Below are positions 25,993-48,370 of a stretch of DNA of 48,904 nucleotides, piece after piece. Each line of letters begins with the position of its first letter. The stretch's first letter is position 1. The notes under the pieces were generated by a model that was not told where the DNA came from, searched no databases, and saw only the letters and a list, made by a program, of their open reading frames with translations. Made by a program: the position numbers and the translations under genes. Origin of the DNA: Candidatus Ventrimonas merdavium (GTDB taxonomy: Bacteria; Bacillota; Clostridia; Lachnospirales; Lachnospiraceae); NCBI GenBank assembly GCA_018715565.1, contig DVLJ01000120.1:1-48904 (forward strand), written 5' to 3'.

Positions 25993-27405
25993 ATGAAGAT
26001 GAGGCTTTCTCTTTATTTAAAGTTTATATTGGGGTATCTGGCGTTTGGATTGCTGGGCTTTGTGACCATCTCCACCCTTTCCTCCCGGATGATGTACGCC
26101 CACCAGGTGGACGAGACGGCGGCGGCCCTTTACGACGAGGCGAACCTGATCGCCGGGGCCTACAGCAGCGTGTACCGGGGGAGCGGACAGGATCTGAATT
26201 CCGCCTATTCCCAGCTCCAGGCAGTGGCAGAATTTGTGCGGTCGGAGATCTGGGTGGTGAACCGCCAGGGGATTGTGGTGGTGGACAGCTCCCGCTCTGC
26301 CAGGAGCGGTACGGAGATCCAGGGCTTTGACCCGGCGGCGATGGGAAGCCGCTCCTATATGATCAGCGACTATTACGGCCAGTTCCCCTACGAGGTGCTG
26401 AGCGTGTCCGCGCCGATCACCGGCAATTACAACACGTATGGCTATGTGCTGCTGCACATGCCGGTGTCCCAGATCTACGAGATCAGCAGCCGGAGCCTGA
26501 ACGTGGTCTATATCGCGGCGGCGATCCTGTTCGTGCTGTCGCTGATCATCCTGCTGGTATTTACCAAGACGGTCTATTTCCCATTAAAGAAGATCACTGC
26601 GGGGGCCAATGAATACGCTTCCGGGAACCTAAAGCACCAGATCGACGTCCATTCCCGGGATGAGATGGGCTATCTGGCGGCGACGTTAAACTATATGTCC
26701 GGCGAGCTGGACAAGATGGAGGAGTATCAGCGCAACTTCATCGCCAATGTGTCCCACGATTTCCGGTCGCCCTTAACATCCATCAAGGGTTATCTGGAAG
26801 CCATCATCGACGGGACCATCCCCCCGGAATTGTATGAGAAATACCTGACCCGGGTGATCGCGGAGACGGAGCGGCTGACCAAGCTGACCCAGGGGATGCT
26901 GACGCTGAACACCTTAGACAGCAAGGGGTATCTGTCCCGCACCAATTTTGACATCAACCGGGTGATCAAGGATACGGCGGCTTCCTTCGAGGGGACCTGC
27001 ACCGCAAAGGGCATCACCTTCGAGCTGACGTTTTCCGAGGCGGTCCTGATGGTCTACGCGGACCTGGGAAAGGTCCAGCAGGTGCTCTACAACCTGATCG
27101 ACAACGCGATCAAGTTCAGCTATCCGGATTCCGCGATCGAGATCCAGGCATATACCCGGAACGAAAAGATCTTCGTGTCAGTCAAGGACCGGGGGATCGG
27201 GATCCCCAGGGACAGCGTGAAAAAGATCTGGGAGCGGTTCTATAAGTCCGACCAGTCCCGGGGCAAGGATAAGCGGGGCACCGGCCTTGGGCTGGCGATC
27301 GTGAAGGAGATCATCCAGGCCCATGGGGAGAATATCGATGTGGTAAGCACCGAGGGCGTTGGATCGGAGTTTATTTTTTCTCTGCCGAAGGCGGGGAATC
27401 TGTGA
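25993..27405 (+). CDS. Sensor histidine kinase (two TM, HAMP, HisKA, HATPase), no adjacent response regulator
   Basis: FIANVSHDFRSPLTSIKGYLEAI H-box, NLIDNAIKFS N-box, KDRGIGIP, GTGLGLAIVKEI. Confidence 0.93.
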   Translation: MKMRLSLYLKFILGYLAFGLLGFVTISTLSSRMMYAHQVDETAAALYDEANLIAGAYSSVYRGSGQDLNSAYSQLQAVAEFVRSEIWVVNRQGIVVVDSSRSARSGTEIQGFDPAAMGSRSYMISDYYGQFPYEVLSVSAPITGNYNTYGYVLLHMPVSQIYEISSRSLNVVYIAAAILFVLSLIILLVFTKTVYFPLKKITAGANEYASGNLKHQIDVHSRDEMGYLAATLNYMSGELDKMEEYQRNFIANVSHDFRSPLTSIKGYLEAIIDGTIPPELYEKYLTRVIAETERLTKLTQGMLTLNTLDSKGYLSRTNFDINRVIKDTAASFEGTCTAKGITFELTFSEAVLMVYADLGKVQQVLYNLIDNAIKFSYPDSAIEIQAYTRNEKIFVSVKDRGIGIPRDSVKKIWERFYKSDQSRGKDKRGTGLGLAIVKEIIQAHGENIDVVSTEGVGSEFIFSLPKAGNL

Positions 27406-39784: not shown

Positions 39785-39830
39785 GGCCGCAGGAGCAATG
39801 GAAAAACCTCCTGCGGCCACCGCATTTTTT
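39785..39830 (+). terminator. Intrinsic terminator at the end of the malate cluster
   Basis: GGCCGCAGGAG...CTCCTGCGGCC stem then T6; same core as the 34683 terminator. Confidence 0.75.
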
Positions 39831-40539
39831 ACCGCTTTACTTCAAACTTATATCCGATGCCCCACACCGTAGTCAGGGACCAGTTGGCGTGGTCCTTGAT
39901 CTTCTCCCGCAGGCGCTTGATATGCACGTCCACGGTCCGGGTGTCTCCGATGTACTCGTAGCCCCAGATGTGGTCTAAAAGCTGCTCTCTGGTAAATACC
40001 TGGTTGGGAGAGGAGGCCAGGAAATACAAAAGCTCCAGCTCCTTAGGCGGCATCTCCACCGGGCGTCCGCAGTAGGTCACGGAGTAGTTGGTCAGGTTTA
40101 CGACCAGGTCCGGATATTCCACGTATTCTCCCTGCTGGGCGTCCACGGAAATGGTCACCGCCGGGGTGGGCTGATAGCGGCGCAGGACCGCCTTGACCCG
40201 GGCCACCAGCTCCTTGGAGTCGAAGGGCTTGATCATGTAATCGTCGGCGCCCAGCTCTAAGCCCAGGACTTTGTCGAAGATCTCCCCCTTCGCCGAGAGC
40301 ATGATGATGGGCACCTGGGAGGTGGCACGCAGCTCCCGGCAGACCTGATAGCCGTCGATGCCGGGGAGCATCAGATCCAGCAGGATCAGGTTCGGCTTAA
40401 AGACCGGAAACTGCTTTAACGCCTCCTCCCCGTCATAAACGATCTTCGTCTCGTAGCATTCTTTCGTCAGATAGAGCGAGATCAGCTCTGCAATATTCTC
40501 GTCGTCGTCTACAATCAAAATCCGCTGCTTTTCAGCCAT
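39829..40539 (-). CDS. OmpR/PhoB-family response regulator without adjacent kinase
   Basis: ILIVDDDENIAELISLYL receiver; winged helix (LLDHIWGYEYIGDTRTVDVHIKRLREKI). Confidence 0.94.
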   Translation of the reverse strand: MAEKQRILIVDDDENIAELISLYLTKECYETKIVYDGEEALKQFPVFKPNLILLDLMLPGIDGYQVCRELRATSQVPIIMLSAKGEIFDKVLGLELGADDYMIKPFDSKELVARVKAVLRRYQPTPAVTISVDAQQGEYVEYPDLVVNLTNYSVTYCGRPVEMPPKELELLYFLASSPNQVFTREQLLDHIWGYEYIGDTRTVDVHIKRLREKIKDHANWSLTTVWGIGYKFEVKR

Positions 40540-40579: not shown

Positions 40580-42970
40580 CTATTTCAATACTACAATGGT
40601 CACGCCGGCGTCGCCCTCGCCGTACTCGGCCAGATGGAACTCCTTGACGGACCGCACCCGCTTCAGATGCTTGTGGATGCCGGCCCGCAGGGCGCCGGTG
40701 CCTTTCCCGTGGACCACCCGCACCTGGCCTAGATGAGCCAGGACGGCGTCGTCCAAATACTTGTCCAGCACGGGGATGGCCTCGTCTACGGTCATGCCCA
40801 GCAGATTGATCTCCGGGGAAACGGAGGCAGACTTGGACATCTTGATGCCGCTGCTGCCGGAGCCCTTCCTGCGGTTCTCCAGGCCGGGGCCGCTGATGGA
40901 TTCCTCATGTAAGAGCTCCAGATCCGATAAGGGGACCCGGGAGCGGAGGATGCCCATCTGGACGAAGACATTGCCCTGGGAATCGGGCAGGGTGCTGACC
41001 GTGCCCTTTAGGTTCATGGAAAGGACGCGGACGCCGTCGCCGATCTTTAACGTCTTGGGGTTGATGGCCTTGTGGGGCTTCGCCTCTTTTTTCAGGGACA
41101 GATTGCTGTCCACCTTTTTCAGATTCTCCCGCAGCCGGCTGCGCTCCGCCTCCAGGGCCTTGGTGTCCACGCCGGAGGAGGAGGCCAGCTTGTTGATGTT
41201 CTTGATGGTCTGATCCGCGGTCTCCTTGGCCTCCCGCAGGATGCGCTGGGCTTCCTCGTTGGCCGAGCGGATGATCTTCTCCCGCCGCTCGTCGAACCGT
41301 TCGTTCTTCTGCTGGAGGCTGGATTTCAGCCGGGCGATCTCCGCCTTGTAGGACTGGATCTCCTCCCGCTCCTTCTCGATGGTGACCCGGTTCTCCTCCA
41401 AACGGCTGATCACATCCTCGAAGGTCTCATCCTCTGCCTCGATGCGGCTCTTGGCGTCGTCGATGATGTAATCCGGCAGGCCCAGCTTTTTGGAAATGGC
41501 AAAGGCGTTGCTCTTTCCCGGGATGCCGATCAGCAGCCGGTAGGTGGGCCGCAGGGTCTGGACGTCAAATTCACAGCAGGCATTCTCCACGCCGGGGGTG
41601 CCCAGGGCGTAGACCTTCAGCTCGCTGTAATGGGTGGTGGCCATGGTCCGGCACTTCATGTTGTGGAGGAAGTTTAAGACCGCGATGGCCAGGGCCGCGC
41701 CCTCGGTGGGATCGGTACCGGCGCCCAGCTCGTCAAACAGACACAGGGAACGGCTGTCTGCCTTTCCCAAAATGTCTACGATATTGGTCATGTGGGCAGA
41801 GAAGGTACTGAGGCTCTGCTCAATGCTCTGCTCGTCGCCGATATCCGCGAACACCTCGTCAAATACGGCCAGCTCCGAGCCGTCAAAGGCCGGGATGTGC
41901 AGGCCCGCCTGGCCCATCAGGGTGAACAGGCCCACGGTCTTTAAGGAGACCGTCTTGCCGCCGGTGTTGGGGCCGGTGACGATGAGCAGGTCAAAGTCCC
42001 CGCCCAGCCAGATGGTGATGGGCACCACCTTCTGAGGATCCAGCAGGGGATGCCGTCCGTCCTTGATGTGGATGCGCCCCTGGGTGTTGAACTTGGGCTC
42101 CGTGCCCTTGTAGTGGCGGGACAGGGCCGCCCGGGCAAAGATAAAGTCCAGCTGGGACAGGATCTCCAGATCCAGGGCCAGAGCCTCCGTGTAGGGGGCC
42201 AGCTCATTGCTCAAGGTGGCTAACACTGCCTCGATCTCCTTCTGCTCCTGGATCTCCAGGGAGCGGAGCTCATTGTTCAGCTGGATGACCGCCATCGGCT
42301 CGATGAACAGGGTGGAGCCGGTGGAGGACTGGTCATGGATCATGCCGTTCACCTGGGAGCGGTGCTCCGACTTGACCGGCAGGCAGTACCGCCCGTCCCG
42401 CATGGTGATCACCGCATCCTGTAAGTAGGACCGGCTGGAATTCAAAATGCTGTTCAAAGCGGTGTGGATCCGGTCGCCGATGGTCCGCATGGAGCGGCGG
42501 ACGTGGCGCAGTCCTGGACTGGCGTCGTCGCTGATCTCGTCCTCGGACACGATGCACCGCTTGATCTCCGTATTCACCGGGGTCAGGGGCTCTAAGGCCC
42601 GGAACATCTCGTCTAAGGAATCGTCAGGGAATTCCTCTGATTCCTCGTGGCGTCCATAGGCTTTGGCCCGGGCGGCTGCGGTCAGCAGGGAGCTGATGGA
42701 AAGCAGCTCCTGGATGCTTAGGGCGCTGCCGATCTCCAGCCGCTTGATGGAATCCCGCACGTCCCGCACGCCGGAGAAGGAAATGCTCCCTTTCATGCGG
42801 ACCCGGGACGCCGCGTCCGAGGTCTCCGTCTGGGCGCGCAGGATATCGGAAAGCTCCGAGGACGGCAGAAGCTCCCGGCACAGGGCCTTGCCCGGGGCCG
42901 ATGCGGCGTACTCGGTAAGCTGGGTGATGATCTTGTCATATTCTAAGGTTTTTAATACTTTCTGGTTCAT
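40580..42970 (-). CDS. mutS2: Endonuclease MutS2 (with C-terminal Smr domain)
   Basis: GPNTGGKTVSLKTVGL Walker A, LFDELGAGTDPTEGAAL, Smr VRVVHGKGTGALRAGI. Confidence 0.96.
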   Translation of the reverse strand: MNQKVLKTLEYDKIITQLTEYAASAPGKALCRELLPSSELSDILRAQTETSDAASRVRMKGSISFSGVRDVRDSIKRLEIGSALSIQELLSISSLLTAAARAKAYGRHEESEEFPDDSLDEMFRALEPLTPVNTEIKRCIVSEDEISDDASPGLRHVRRSMRTIGDRIHTALNSILNSSRSYLQDAVITMRDGRYCLPVKSEHRSQVNGMIHDQSSTGSTLFIEPMAVIQLNNELRSLEIQEQKEIEAVLATLSNELAPYTEALALDLEILSQLDFIFARAALSRHYKGTEPKFNTQGRIHIKDGRHPLLDPQKVVPITIWLGGDFDLLIVTGPNTGGKTVSLKTVGLFTLMGQAGLHIPAFDGSELAVFDEVFADIGDEQSIEQSLSTFSAHMTNIVDILGKADSRSLCLFDELGAGTDPTEGAALAIAVLNFLHNMKCRTMATTHYSELKVYALGTPGVENACCEFDVQTLRPTYRLLIGIPGKSNAFAISKKLGLPDYIIDDAKSRIEAEDETFEDVISRLEENRVTIEKEREEIQSYKAEIARLKSSLQQKNERFDERREKIIRSANEEAQRILREAKETADQTIKNINKLASSSGVDTKALEAERSRLRENLKKVDSNLSLKKEAKPHKAINPKTLKIGDGVRVLSMNLKGTVSTLPDSQGNVFVQMGILRSRVPLSDLELLHEESISGPGLENRRKGSGSSGIKMSKSASVSPEINLLGMTVDEAIPVLDKYLDDAVLAHLGQVRVVHGKGTGALRAGIHKHLKRVRSVKEFHLAEYGEGDAGVTIVVLK

Positions 42971-43245: not shown

Positions 43246-44580
43246 ATGCCTGAGGTACGTGGTCCGGGAAATGAACAAGAGAAAAAGGAAAGAAGGCATT
43301 TTATCCAGGAAAAGATCGTAAAGCGGCCGCCGGGCAGGCGGCAGATCGCATATAAGCTCTTTAAGCTGGCAGGCGGCGCGGCGATCTTCGGGGCGGTGGC
43401 GGCGGTGTCATTTTCTGCGGTGATGCCTTTGACAGACCGTTTTTTCAAGGAGGAGACGGTACGGGAGCCGGTCTCGATCCCCAAGGACGAGATCACGGAA
43501 CCGACGACTGTGCCGGTGGAGACGACGGCCCCGGCTGCGGCTGAGACGACGGAATGTGAAGAGCCGATCGAAGATAAGGTCCAGTCGGTGATGGAGAATT
43601 ACAACTATACAGCCGAGGACTTCGGTTCCATGCTCAACAGCCTGCGGACCCGCGTCCAGACGGCGGATAAGGGGATCGTGGCGGTCCATGCGGTCCAGGA
43701 GAACGTGGACTGGTTTGACAACCCCCTGCTCACCACTGGCTCCTATGCCGGGGCGGTCGTGGCCCGCACGGAGCAGGAACTTCTGATCCTGACCCCGGAA
43801 GCGGCGGTGGAGCAGGCGGATGCGATCCGGGTGACCTTCAGCGACGGGAGCGACGTGGCCGGGCAGGTGAAGCAGAAGGACAGCGTGGCGGATATGGCCG
43901 TGGTCAGCGTCAGTGTCAGCGCATTGCCGGAGACCACGCGGAATACGGTGCAGACCGTTGCCCTGGGGAATTCCTATATCGTCCGGGAGGGGGATGTGCT
44001 GATCGCGGTGGGCGGCCCTGCGGGGGCAGTCCATTCCATGGATTACGGCGTTGTCTCCTATGTGCTGAGGACGGCGAGGATGGCGGATCAGAACTGTCGG
44101 ATCCTGTATTCCGATATCCTGTCCGATACGGAGACGGGGACATTTTTCCTGAACATCTCCGGCGAGCTGGTGGGCTGGGCCATGGAGCCCCAGGAGGACC
44201 AGAGCGGAGACGAGAGGGAGTTTGCAGAGATCATGGGGATCTCCGATTATAAAGGGATCCTGGAGAAATTGAGCAACGGCCAGGGCGCGCCCTATCTGGG
44301 CATCGTGGGACAGACCGTGACCGAGACCATGGCCCTCAGCGGCCAGCCGTCCGGTGTGTACGTGGTGAACGCAGTGGCCGAGAGCCCGGCGTATGCGGCG
44401 GGGATCCAGAATGGCGACATCATCACCGCTGTCAATGGGAAGACCGTGACTTCCATGCGGGATTTCCAGAACGCGGTGGAACAGCTGGCGTGCGGCCAGG
44501 AGGTCGTGGTGCTGGCGGCCCGCAGCGGGCGGGAGCATTTCACGGAGCTGGAATTCTCTGTGACCGTGGGGACGCGGTAG
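43246..44580 (+). CDS. HtrA/DegP-like membrane-anchored PDZ protein, probable pseudoprotease
   Basis: TM, trypsin-like fold region and PDZ domain (YLGIVGQTV...VVNAVAESPAYAAGIQNGDIITAVNGKTV); catalytic His and Ser positions not conserved. Confidence 0.8.
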   Translation: MPEVRGPGNEQEKKERRHFIQEKIVKRPPGRRQIAYKLFKLAGGAAIFGAVAAVSFSAVMPLTDRFFKEETVREPVSIPKDEITEPTTVPVETTAPAAAETTECEEPIEDKVQSVMENYNYTAEDFGSMLNSLRTRVQTADKGIVAVHAVQENVDWFDNPLLTTGSYAGAVVARTEQELLILTPEAAVEQADAIRVTFSDGSDVAGQVKQKDSVADMAVVSVSVSALPETTRNTVQTVALGNSYIVREGDVLIAVGGPAGAVHSMDYGVVSYVLRTARMADQNCRILYSDILSDTETGTFFLNISGELVGWAMEPQEDQSGDEREFAEIMGISDYKGILEKLSNGQGAPYLGIVGQTVTETMALSGQPSGVYVVNAVAESPAYAAGIQNGDIITAVNGKTVTSMRDFQNAVEQLACGQEVVVLAARSGREHFTELEFSVTVGTR

Positions 44581-44904: not shown

Positions 44905-45852
44905 ATGAAATATATTGACAGTCTGCGGGAGGGCATGCGTATCTCGGAGGTGTATCTGTGCAAATCGAAGCAGATCGCCCTGACGAAAGCGGGAAAAGAG
45001 TATGGGAGCCTGGTGCTGCAGGATAAGACCGGCACGGTGGACGCCAAGATCTGGGATTTGGGATCCCCGGGCATCGGCAATTTTGAGGCCCTGGACTATG
45101 TGTGCGTGGACGCGGACGTGACCATGTTCATGAACGCGAACCAGCTGAATGTGAAGCGGATCCGCAAGGCGGATGAGACGGAGTATGTGGCGGCGGATTA
45201 TCTGCCGGTATCCTCCAAGGACATCGGGACGATGTACCGGGAGCTGACGGAGATCATCGGCACGGTGAAGAACCCTTATCTGCGGAAGCTGCTGGACGGG
45301 TTCTTCGTGGAGGATCCGGCATTTGCCAAGGCGTTCCAGTTCCACAGCGCGGCGAAAAGCGTGCACCACGGATTTGTGGGAGGACTGCTGGAGCATACCC
45401 TGAGCGTGACCAAGATGTGCTGCTATTTTGCAGGGGCTTATCCGCTGCTGAACCGGGACCTGCTTTTGACGGCGGCCATGTTCCACGACGTGGGTAAGCT
45501 GCGGGAGCTGTCGGTGTTCCCGGAGAATGATTACACCGACGACGGCCAGCTGCTGGGCCACATCATCATCGGCACGGAGATGATCGGCGAGCGTATTCGG
45601 ACGATCCCCGGATTCCCGGTGAAGCTGGCGGCGGAGTTAAAGCACTGTATCCTGGCTCATCACGGCGAGCTGGAGTACGGCTCTCCCAAAAAGCCGGCGA
45701 TCCTGGAAGCGCTGGCGCTGAATTTCGCGGACAATGCGGACGCGAAGATGGAGACGATGATCGAGGTGCTCCAGGGAGCCGGGGAGAACCATGGCTGGCT
45801 GGGATATAACCGGCTGCTGGAGACGAATATCCGGAAAACGTCGGAAGGGTAA
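44905..45852 (+). CDS. yhaM: YhaM-like 3'-5' exoribonuclease (OB-fold plus HD domain)
   Basis: OB-fold N-terminus; HD domain HHGFVGGLLEHTLSV...AAMFHDVGKLREL...HCILAHHGELEYGSPKKP. Confidence 0.92.
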   Translation: MKYIDSLREGMRISEVYLCKSKQIALTKAGKEYGSLVLQDKTGTVDAKIWDLGSPGIGNFEALDYVCVDADVTMFMNANQLNVKRIRKADETEYVAADYLPVSSKDIGTMYRELTEIIGTVKNPYLRKLLDGFFVEDPAFAKAFQFHSAAKSVHHGFVGGLLEHTLSVTKMCCYFAGAYPLLNRDLLLTAAMFHDVGKLRELSVFPENDYTDDGQLLGHIIIGTEMIGERIRTIPGFPVKLAAELKHCILAHHGELEYGSPKKPAILEALALNFADNADAKMETMIEVLQGAGENHGWLGYNRLLETNIRKTSEG

Positions 45853-46077: not shown

Positions 46078-46470
46078 AGGAGGTATACGTATGTTGTATG
46101 GTGTATTTATGTAAACCGCTTCGCTGTGGGCGGGATGCCCACGTGGGGGAAGCGAGGGTTTGTTGGTCGACCTGACAACGGGTGCGCGCTTGGTGCCATC
46201 AGGCCATTTATGTAAGATGATAACGAACTCTCTGTTCATTACGTGATGTCCGTCCCAGAGACGTTTGCTCTGTCGTTCATCATGGTTTTATCATACCGGA
46301 TAGATGTGTCTAAAGTTTGAGGAGTTTCTAAAGACTTTGGAAAAAAATGAAAGAAATTATAACATTTTTGGAAGGACGTGTTAAGAAAAGCGTCTTTTCA
46401 GGGGTGGGGGAATCCGGTATAATGAGAGGGAGGAAGACGAAGACGATCAAAAATCATGGGAGCGTGTGAC

Positions 46471-48167
46471 ATGGATTGGAAAAAGAATGAGAGATTTCAG
46501 GTGACGATAGAGGATTTAAGCGAGAACGGGGAGGGGATCGGCAAGACCGATGGATTTACCTGGTTCGTGAAGGATGCGGTGCCAGGAGATGTGGTGGAGG
46601 TCAGCGTGATGAAGGTGAAAAAGACCTATGGCTATGCCCGCCTTCTGCGGGTGCTGGAGCCTTCCCCGGACCGGGTGATCCCGCCCTGCCCGGTGGCCCG
46701 CCAGTGCGGCGGCTGCCAGATCCAGGCCATGTCTTATGAAGCACAGCTGCGGTTTAAGGAAGGGAAGATCTGTAATAATCTGCGGCGGATCGGTGGGCTG
46801 ACCGGGATGGTGCCGGTGGATGAGAATGGGGGGTTGAGAGAGGGCGGTGCGGAGTGGGCTGCCGGGGAAATTGGTGCAGAGCATGTGGTTCAGGGAATTG
46901 CCGTGGAGCAGGATGGCCGGGAAATTGCCGCAGAGCGAGATGCACGGGGCACAGGAGCGGAGGGGGATACCAGGGATACCAGGGGCGCCGGGACGGCCGG
47001 AGCGGACTGGTGTATGGAGCAGCGGCAGCTGGTGTATCCGATCATGGGAATGGAGCGGCCCTGGCGTTACCGCAATAAAGCTCAATTCCCGTTTGGGAAA
47101 GGGAAGGATGGGCGGATCATTACGGGATTTTATGCGGGACGTACCCATTCGATCATTGAGGCGGAGGATTGCCTGCTTGGGGTGGAGGAAAATAAGAAGA
47201 TCCTGGACTGCATCCGCAGCCATATGGAACAATATGGGATCGAGCCCTATGACGAGACGACACACCAGGGCCTGGTGCGCCATGCGCTGATCCGGAAGGG
47301 ATTCCGGACCGGGGAGCTGATGGTCTGCCTGGTGCTCAATGGGAGCGTGAAGCAGCTGACGGCGGCGGAGGAATTGGTGGAGAGGCTGAAGGGGCTGTTT
47401 GAGTGGGCGGTAGCTGAGACGGAGCCGGGTGAGATGGGGCTGAGTGAGATGGGGATAGCGGGTGGAGCAAGGGCCGCCGGGAAAGCCGCGCCGGCGCCGG
47501 CTCCCCGCATGGCCAGCATTTCTTGCAGCATCAACCGGGAGCGGACGAACGTGATCATGGGGACCAAGATCGTGAATCTGTATGGGCCGGGGTATATCAC
47601 GGACTATATCGGCAATGTGCAGTACCGCATTTCGCCCCTTTCGTTTTATCAGGTGAACCCGGTGCAGACGGAGAAGCTGTATGGTACGGCGTTGGAATAT
47701 GCCGGGCTGACGGGGGAGGAGACAGTGTGGGATCTGTACTGCGGGATCGGCACGATCTCTCTGTTCCTGGCGCAGAAGGCGAAAAAGGTGTACGGGGTGG
47801 AGATTGTTCCCCAGGCAATCGAGGATGCCCGGGCTAATGCGAAGCTGAACGGCATGGAGAATGTGGAGTTCTTTGTGGGGAAGGCGGAGGAGGTGCTGCC
47901 GGAACAGTACGAGAAGCATCATGTCTATGCGGATGTGATCGTGTGGATCCGCCACGAAAGGGCTGCGACCCGGTCTGCCTGGATACGATCGTGAAGATGG
48001 CCCCGAAACGGGTGGTTTATGTGAGCTGTGATTCGGCGACATTGGCCAGGGATCTGAAGTATCTGGGGGAGCGGGGGTATGCGGTGAAGAAGGTGAGAGG
48101 GTGCGATATGTTTGGGCAGACGGGGCATGTGGAGACGGTATGCCTTCTGTCGAGAAAAGCCCAATAA
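46471..48167 (+). pseudogene. 23S rRNA (uracil-C5)-methyltransferase, RlmD/TrmA family, interrupted by a frameshift near 47951
   Basis: TRAM-like N-terminus, FeS cysteines CPVARQCGGCQIQ, SAM motif VWDLYCGIGTISLFLAQKAKKVYGVE in frame 46471-47994; remaining [16 protein letters not shown]...[18 protein letters not shown] in another frame (47943-48167). Confidence 0.9.
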
Positions 48168-48370
48168 ATCAAAGAATTTTGGCAGTTTGGGAAGAAAATA
48201 GATGTGTGTTTCTGTTTCCGTAGAGAGATGCTATAATCGGAGGTTTACCCCAGGGGATAGACTTTGAGAAATGGGAGATATACATTTTGGCGAAAGGATA
48301 TTTTTTCGCAAAAGTAAGGAAAGAGATTGGATATACAATAGTATTTGAATTAGCTTAGGAGGTGAGGTCA

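Follow-up and report, generated by a model that had tools for sequence, protein, structure and literature searches.

HtrA pseudoproteases as such are already known from magnetosome gene clusters, where they include MamO and inactive copies of MamE (PMC4794232). MamO, a magnetosome protein of Alphaproteobacteria, is the nearest precedent for the family described here: both descend from HtrA/trypsin-2 proteins, both have a degenerate triad with a non-Gly residue at the oxyanion position, and both coexist with an active HtrA relative. The new family differs from it in phylum, presumably reflecting an independent origin, and in architecture, as MamO ends in a TauE-like membrane domain whereas the protein studied here ends in a PDZ domain (Pfam, AF2); it is also far more widespread. 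In its layout the protein is closer to DegS, with an N-terminal anchor of one membrane helix, one S1 domain and one PDZ domain, but DegS signals by cleaving RseA and the Lachnospiraceae protein is without a triad. As regards the locus, Bacillus subtilis CssRS-HtrB and WalRKHIJ-YycK likewise place an HtrA gene beside an OmpR-family regulator and a kinase; those HtrAs are, however, treated as proteases, whereas in the present case catalysis is lost from the copy at the locus and retained by one at another site. Clostridial pseudoproteases that signal without cutting are represented by CspA and CspC of Clostridioides difficile, although these are soluble, subtilisin-fold proteins of spore germination unrelated to HtrA. 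In the open-licence literature searched, we found no description of HtrA pseudoproteases in Lachnospiraceae, and the string 'pseudo' is absent from the text of a 2025 review of Gram-positive HtrA.

The gene lies in a 48,904-nucleotide stretch of DNA (the window) from a 3.1-Mb draft genome, and the named relatives of its product are Lachnospiraceae proteins, e.g. from Hungatella, Enterocloster and Lacrimispora. Coordinates and strand of the 444-aa open reading frame were confirmed (Table 1). From N- to C-terminus, the protein consists of a short cytosolic segment, one membrane helix, a Thr/Glu-rich linker, a trypsin-like domain and a PDZ domain. Pfam matches were obtained for Trypsin_2 (residues 171–310, 41.5 bits against a cut-off of 27.6) and PDZ (residues 351–430). 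An earlier note on this DNA, made from its letters, expected automatic annotation to call the protein an S1C serine protease; this is plausible given the Trypsin_2 match, but none of the NCBIfam HtrA equivalogs passes its cut-off on the 444-aa protein. A structure prediction, which the same note had named as a check, returned an HtrA fold. The AF2 model, built from an alignment of 59 sequences, has a mean pLDDT of 85.6 (mostly >90 in the two folded domains) and a pTM of 0.74, and among PDB entries it matches the HtrA structures Deg1, DegQ, DegS and MucD at Z about 23–24, DegS being one of the best matches, with a low rmsd. The trypsin-like fold and the C-terminal PDZ domain of HtrA (S1C) proteins are thus both present, and the latter is intact, as the note had held: the Phi-Gly-Phi carboxylate loop is retained as YLGI (350–353), its Gly being 100% conserved in the aligned orthologs.

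Table 1. Coordinates of the pseudoprotease gene, its parts and its conserved neighbours in the window
Feature	Position	Strand	Basis
HtrA-like pseudoprotease, N-in single-pass membrane protein, 444 aa	43246..44580	+	ORF (start ATG 43246, stop ends 44580), Pfam Trypsin_2 and PDZ, AF2, structure matches
Cytosolic motif F-I/M-x-E-K-I-V-K-x-P, codons 19–30, most conserved part of the protein	43300..43335	+	Identity among 59 orthologs
Transmembrane helix, codons 38–61	43357..43428	+	Hydrophobic stretch; AF2 helix 31–67
Dead trypsin-like (S1) domain, codons 141–345	43666..44280	+	Pfam Trypsin_2 171–310; structure match
Ala replacing catalytic His, codon 186	43801..43803	+	Alignment to L002 and orthologs
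Asp at catalytic Asp position, codon 216, not conserved across the family	43891..43893	+	Asp in 12/167 orthologs
Thr replacing nucleophilic Ser, codon 297; GTF next	44134..44136	+	Ortholog alignments
PDZ domain, codons 346–444; intact YLGI carboxylate-binding loop at codons 350–353	44281..44577	+	Pfam; loop conservation
mutS2, conserved divergent neighbour	40580..42970	-	NCBIfam TIGR01069, 984 bits; synteny
OmpR-family response regulator (MtrA/YycF-like), conserved neighbour	39829..40539	-	Synteny, profile matches
WalK-like sensor histidine kinase, apparent displaced partner of regulator 39829–40539	25993..27405	+	Matches kinase adjoining regulator in other loci
YhaM-like HD-domain exoribonuclease, conserved downstream gene	44905..45852	+	Synteny, NCBIfam

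What alignment does not find is the His-Asp-Ser triad with its oxyanion Gly. The triad columns were defined on the genome's own canonical HtrA (L002, reading IVTNNHVV, SATDLAV and NPGNSGGALLN), against which the catalytic His corresponds to Ala186, the Asp to Asp216 and the Ser to Thr297. The Ser loop, SDTETGTFFLN, is 1 residue shorter than in L002, and the GTF that follows the dead Ser position is invariant in the 59 closest orthologs. Two readings of the earlier note, Ala in place of the His and no Ser at the nucleophile, were therefore borne out, while a third, an intact Asp region, is true of this protein but not of its family: among 167 aligned orthologs the Asp column holds Gly in 129, Asn in 14 and Asp in 12, indicating that Asp216 is there by chance and that the whole triad is unconstrained. 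In the same orthologs the His column varies among Ala, Gly, Glu, Asp, Ser, Lys and others, the Ser column among Gly, Ala, Lys, Thr, Met and Ser, and the oxyanion-hole Gly, absent here, survives in five. In neither the 86 loci from Lachnospiraceae genomes nor the 80 named loci do His and Ser occur together (a single chance His was seen in one), whereas 19 HtrA matches from other families or from non-orthologous loci keep H-D-S. Since the loss recurs, with varying substitutes, in all aligned orthologs and these other HtrAs retain the triad, neither chance nor an alignment slip accounts for it. Another His/Ser pair, which the note had named as a possible refutation, was also sought; no His column of the S1 domain exceeds 54% across the 167 orthologs, and an alternative catalytic dyad was rejected on this basis. 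For the di-histidine metal-binding surface motif of MamO, the observation at hand is that same figure, taken over all His columns of the S1 domain.

A search of genomes recovered full-length relatives throughout Lachnospiraceae. Profile matches that clearly outscore the canonical paralogs, almost all of them over the full length, were present in about 82–86 of 120 sampled near-complete genera (~70%), a manual count based on the listed scores with a boundary at about 275–300 bits and with the triad read in part of the matches. Outside Lachnospiraceae, no profile match from the order or phylum exceeded 340 bits, and the proteins read from these families were canonical HDS enzymes. In close pairs dN/dS is mostly 0.03–0.2, and about 0.01–0.15 in the S1 domain, as low as elsewhere in the protein, showing that the gene is maintained by selection; partial decay of a single gene is ruled out by these values together with the orthologs. 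With a triad in no aligned Lachnospiraceae ortholog and no conserved S1 His, the dN/dS values argue for a functional pseudoprotease family, and a gene under strong selection without the cutting machinery must serve something besides protein cutting. In six genomes without the gene, mutS2 and yhaM adjoin directly (about 125 bp apart in several), which amounts to clean loss. Individual copies also vary: one ortholog (L254:3756–4985, in genome G257) has a strongly diverged S1 domain and retains the cytosolic motif and PDZ domain, and one Lachnospiraceae genome (G211) apparently carries two pseudoprotease copies (C2:3790–5088 and C50:28670–29965).

A tree computed without the triad loops and rooted on HtrAs from other Bacillota families groups the pseudoprotease sequences in one clade (support 100/99), which is sister to the active Lachnospiraceae HtrAs (100/88) and lies within a wider set of active HtrAs from other families; branches in this tree are long and support for the root position is weak. 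L002, the active paralog of the same genome, belongs to the sister clade and lies away from the dead copy's locus. That locus reads mutS2-(RR-HK)-htrA-yhaM-rlmD, and in sister families an active HtrA occupies the same place. yhaM is downstream in 157/160 loci, mutS2 divergent upstream in 138/160, and matches to the regulator and kinase were found upstream in 121/160, within the stretch read. The one-strand order mutS2>RR>HK>htrA>yhaM>rlmD, seen in other families (HtrA active) and in five Lachnospiraceae loci (HtrA dead), is the ancestral one; most Lachnospiraceae have mutS2-RR-HK in inverted orientation. Taken together, tree and synteny are most simply read as a duplication in the Lachnospiraceae ancestor, after which the copy that kept the locus would have lost catalysis; that loss appears to have happened once. 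A pseudoprotease, as the earlier note had proposed, is thus strongly supported at the family level by the absence of the triad from all aligned orthologs, a single origin, purifying selection and a confidently predicted HtrA fold, and the sequence record points to a Lachnospiraceae-wide family of HtrA-fold pseudoproteases.

Several features of the neighbourhood can be added. Profile scores place the regulator near MtrA/YycF and the kinase near WalK, in both cases under the equivalog cut-offs. In the window 12 kb separates the two genes, which lie on opposite strands, with genes of malate and citrate metabolism in the gap, an arrangement that fits an inversion between them; in most relatives they are adjacent. 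One locus (L245, in genome G044) has mutS2, regulator, kinase and yhaM in ancestral collinear order and no pseudoprotease. Downstream, rlmD (46456–48170, +) shows an apparent frameshift near 47950, after which the methyltransferase motif VDPPRKGC continues in another frame to about 48170, and an unusual Gly/Ala/Glu-rich insert at residues ~105–190; frameshift and insert could be assembly errors.

The most conserved part of the protein lies on the cytosolic side of the membrane. Mean pairwise identity among 59 orthologs is 69% in the N-terminal motif, compared with 54% in the S1 domain and 53% in the PDZ domain, and F19 and E22 are invariant. A related pattern, loosely defined, precedes the membrane helix in all 13 active HtrAs that other families carry at this locus; it occurs in 5/22 active copies that have moved and in 0/29 outgroup HtrAs, the looseness of the pattern implying some chance rate (as in the 5/22). 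These counts indicate that the motif travels with the locus and not with catalysis. The sequences show the fold, the membrane helix, the PDZ carboxylate loop and the cytosolic motif to be under purifying selection.

Because a ligand site outside, a membrane helix and a motif inside are kept while the scissors are gone, signalling or scaffolding by binding is the most likely function, and we infer that binding rather than cutting is the mode of action. That the family, derived once from the locus HtrA, acts as a membrane PDZ receptor or scaffold is our leading reading, put at just under an even chance. On the outer side, the PDZ domain would capture C-termini, either those left exposed on unfolded or mis-secreted proteins or that of a single fixed partner, with the dead S1 domain serving as a module for interaction or oligomerisation; the state of PDZ and S1 would be relayed by the one membrane helix to FIxEKIVKxP, where a partner in the cytosol or the membrane would dock. 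The first candidate for that partner is the WalRK-like two-component system encoded next to the gene. The outcome would be a DegS-like sensor whose output is contact instead of cleavage. The membrane-anchored sensor or scaffold with PDZ binding that the earlier note suggested would fit the anatomy, the motif and the two-component locus, while its alternative of a decoy has no specific support. A sharper version, in which the whole family works as a non-proteolytic DegS, sensing envelope stress as a PDZ co-receptor and using FIxEKIVKxP to control the WalRK-like kinase encoded alongside, is improbable as it stands. Signalling by PDZ co-receptor contact to a kinase was not found described for HtrA proteins in the open-licence literature. 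The regulator stays beside mutS2 in several genomes that have lost the pseudoprotease gene, and no part in WalKR regulation is established for YycK, the HtrA of the B. subtilis wal operon (PMC4801191); the two-component link is therefore not obligatory and the kinase amounts to no more than a lead. History by itself can produce such synteny.

Other functions must be weighed against binding as a receptor or scaffold. The protein might be a membrane-bound chaperone or holdase that performs the chaperone function of HtrA without proteolysis, the cytosolic motif being a targeting signal only. Gram-positive HtrAs do show chaperone activity, B. subtilis can profit from an HtrA that lacks protease activity (PMC12826053), and both PDZ and S1 fold are conserved, yet a holdase alone gives no reason why the cytosolic motif should be best conserved and does not explain the loss of catalysis, given that an active HtrA can serve as a chaperone too; we consider this reading doubtful, if a genuine contender. 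Unlikely, too, is a regulatory subunit of the active paralog, acting through mixed oligomers or substrate hand-over in the way that MamO promotes MamE-dependent proteolysis without needing its triad (PMC4794232). HtrAs are oligomeric and L002, of the sister clade, is available in the genome, but dead and active genes are unlinked, active HtrA is nearly everywhere, so that co-occurrence says little, and again the cytosolic motif is left unexplained.

The two remaining explanations deny that the protein is a functional pseudoprotease. Residual proteolysis by an unusual nucleophile or another His/Ser pair could be imagined from the Thr at the Ser position and the Asp present here; set against the variable Ser column, the lack of a conserved S1 His and the lost oxyanion Gly, it is highly improbable. 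Even fainter is the chance of a decaying, functionless gene, for the clean losses mark it as dispensable in some genomes but it is found in most genera and under a purifying selection that contradicts decay.

The proteins described here would constitute a second family of bacterial HtrA pseudoproteases beside MamO, carried by most sampled genera of Lachnospiraceae, which are major gut commensals, where automatic annotation would likely call the protein a serine protease. They also offer an unusually clear case of duplication, in which the copy at the ancestral locus appears to have lost catalysis and a copy elsewhere kept it, while PDZ domain, anchor and motif persisted. The family thereby makes non-cutting roles of HtrA proteins at two-component loci testable.
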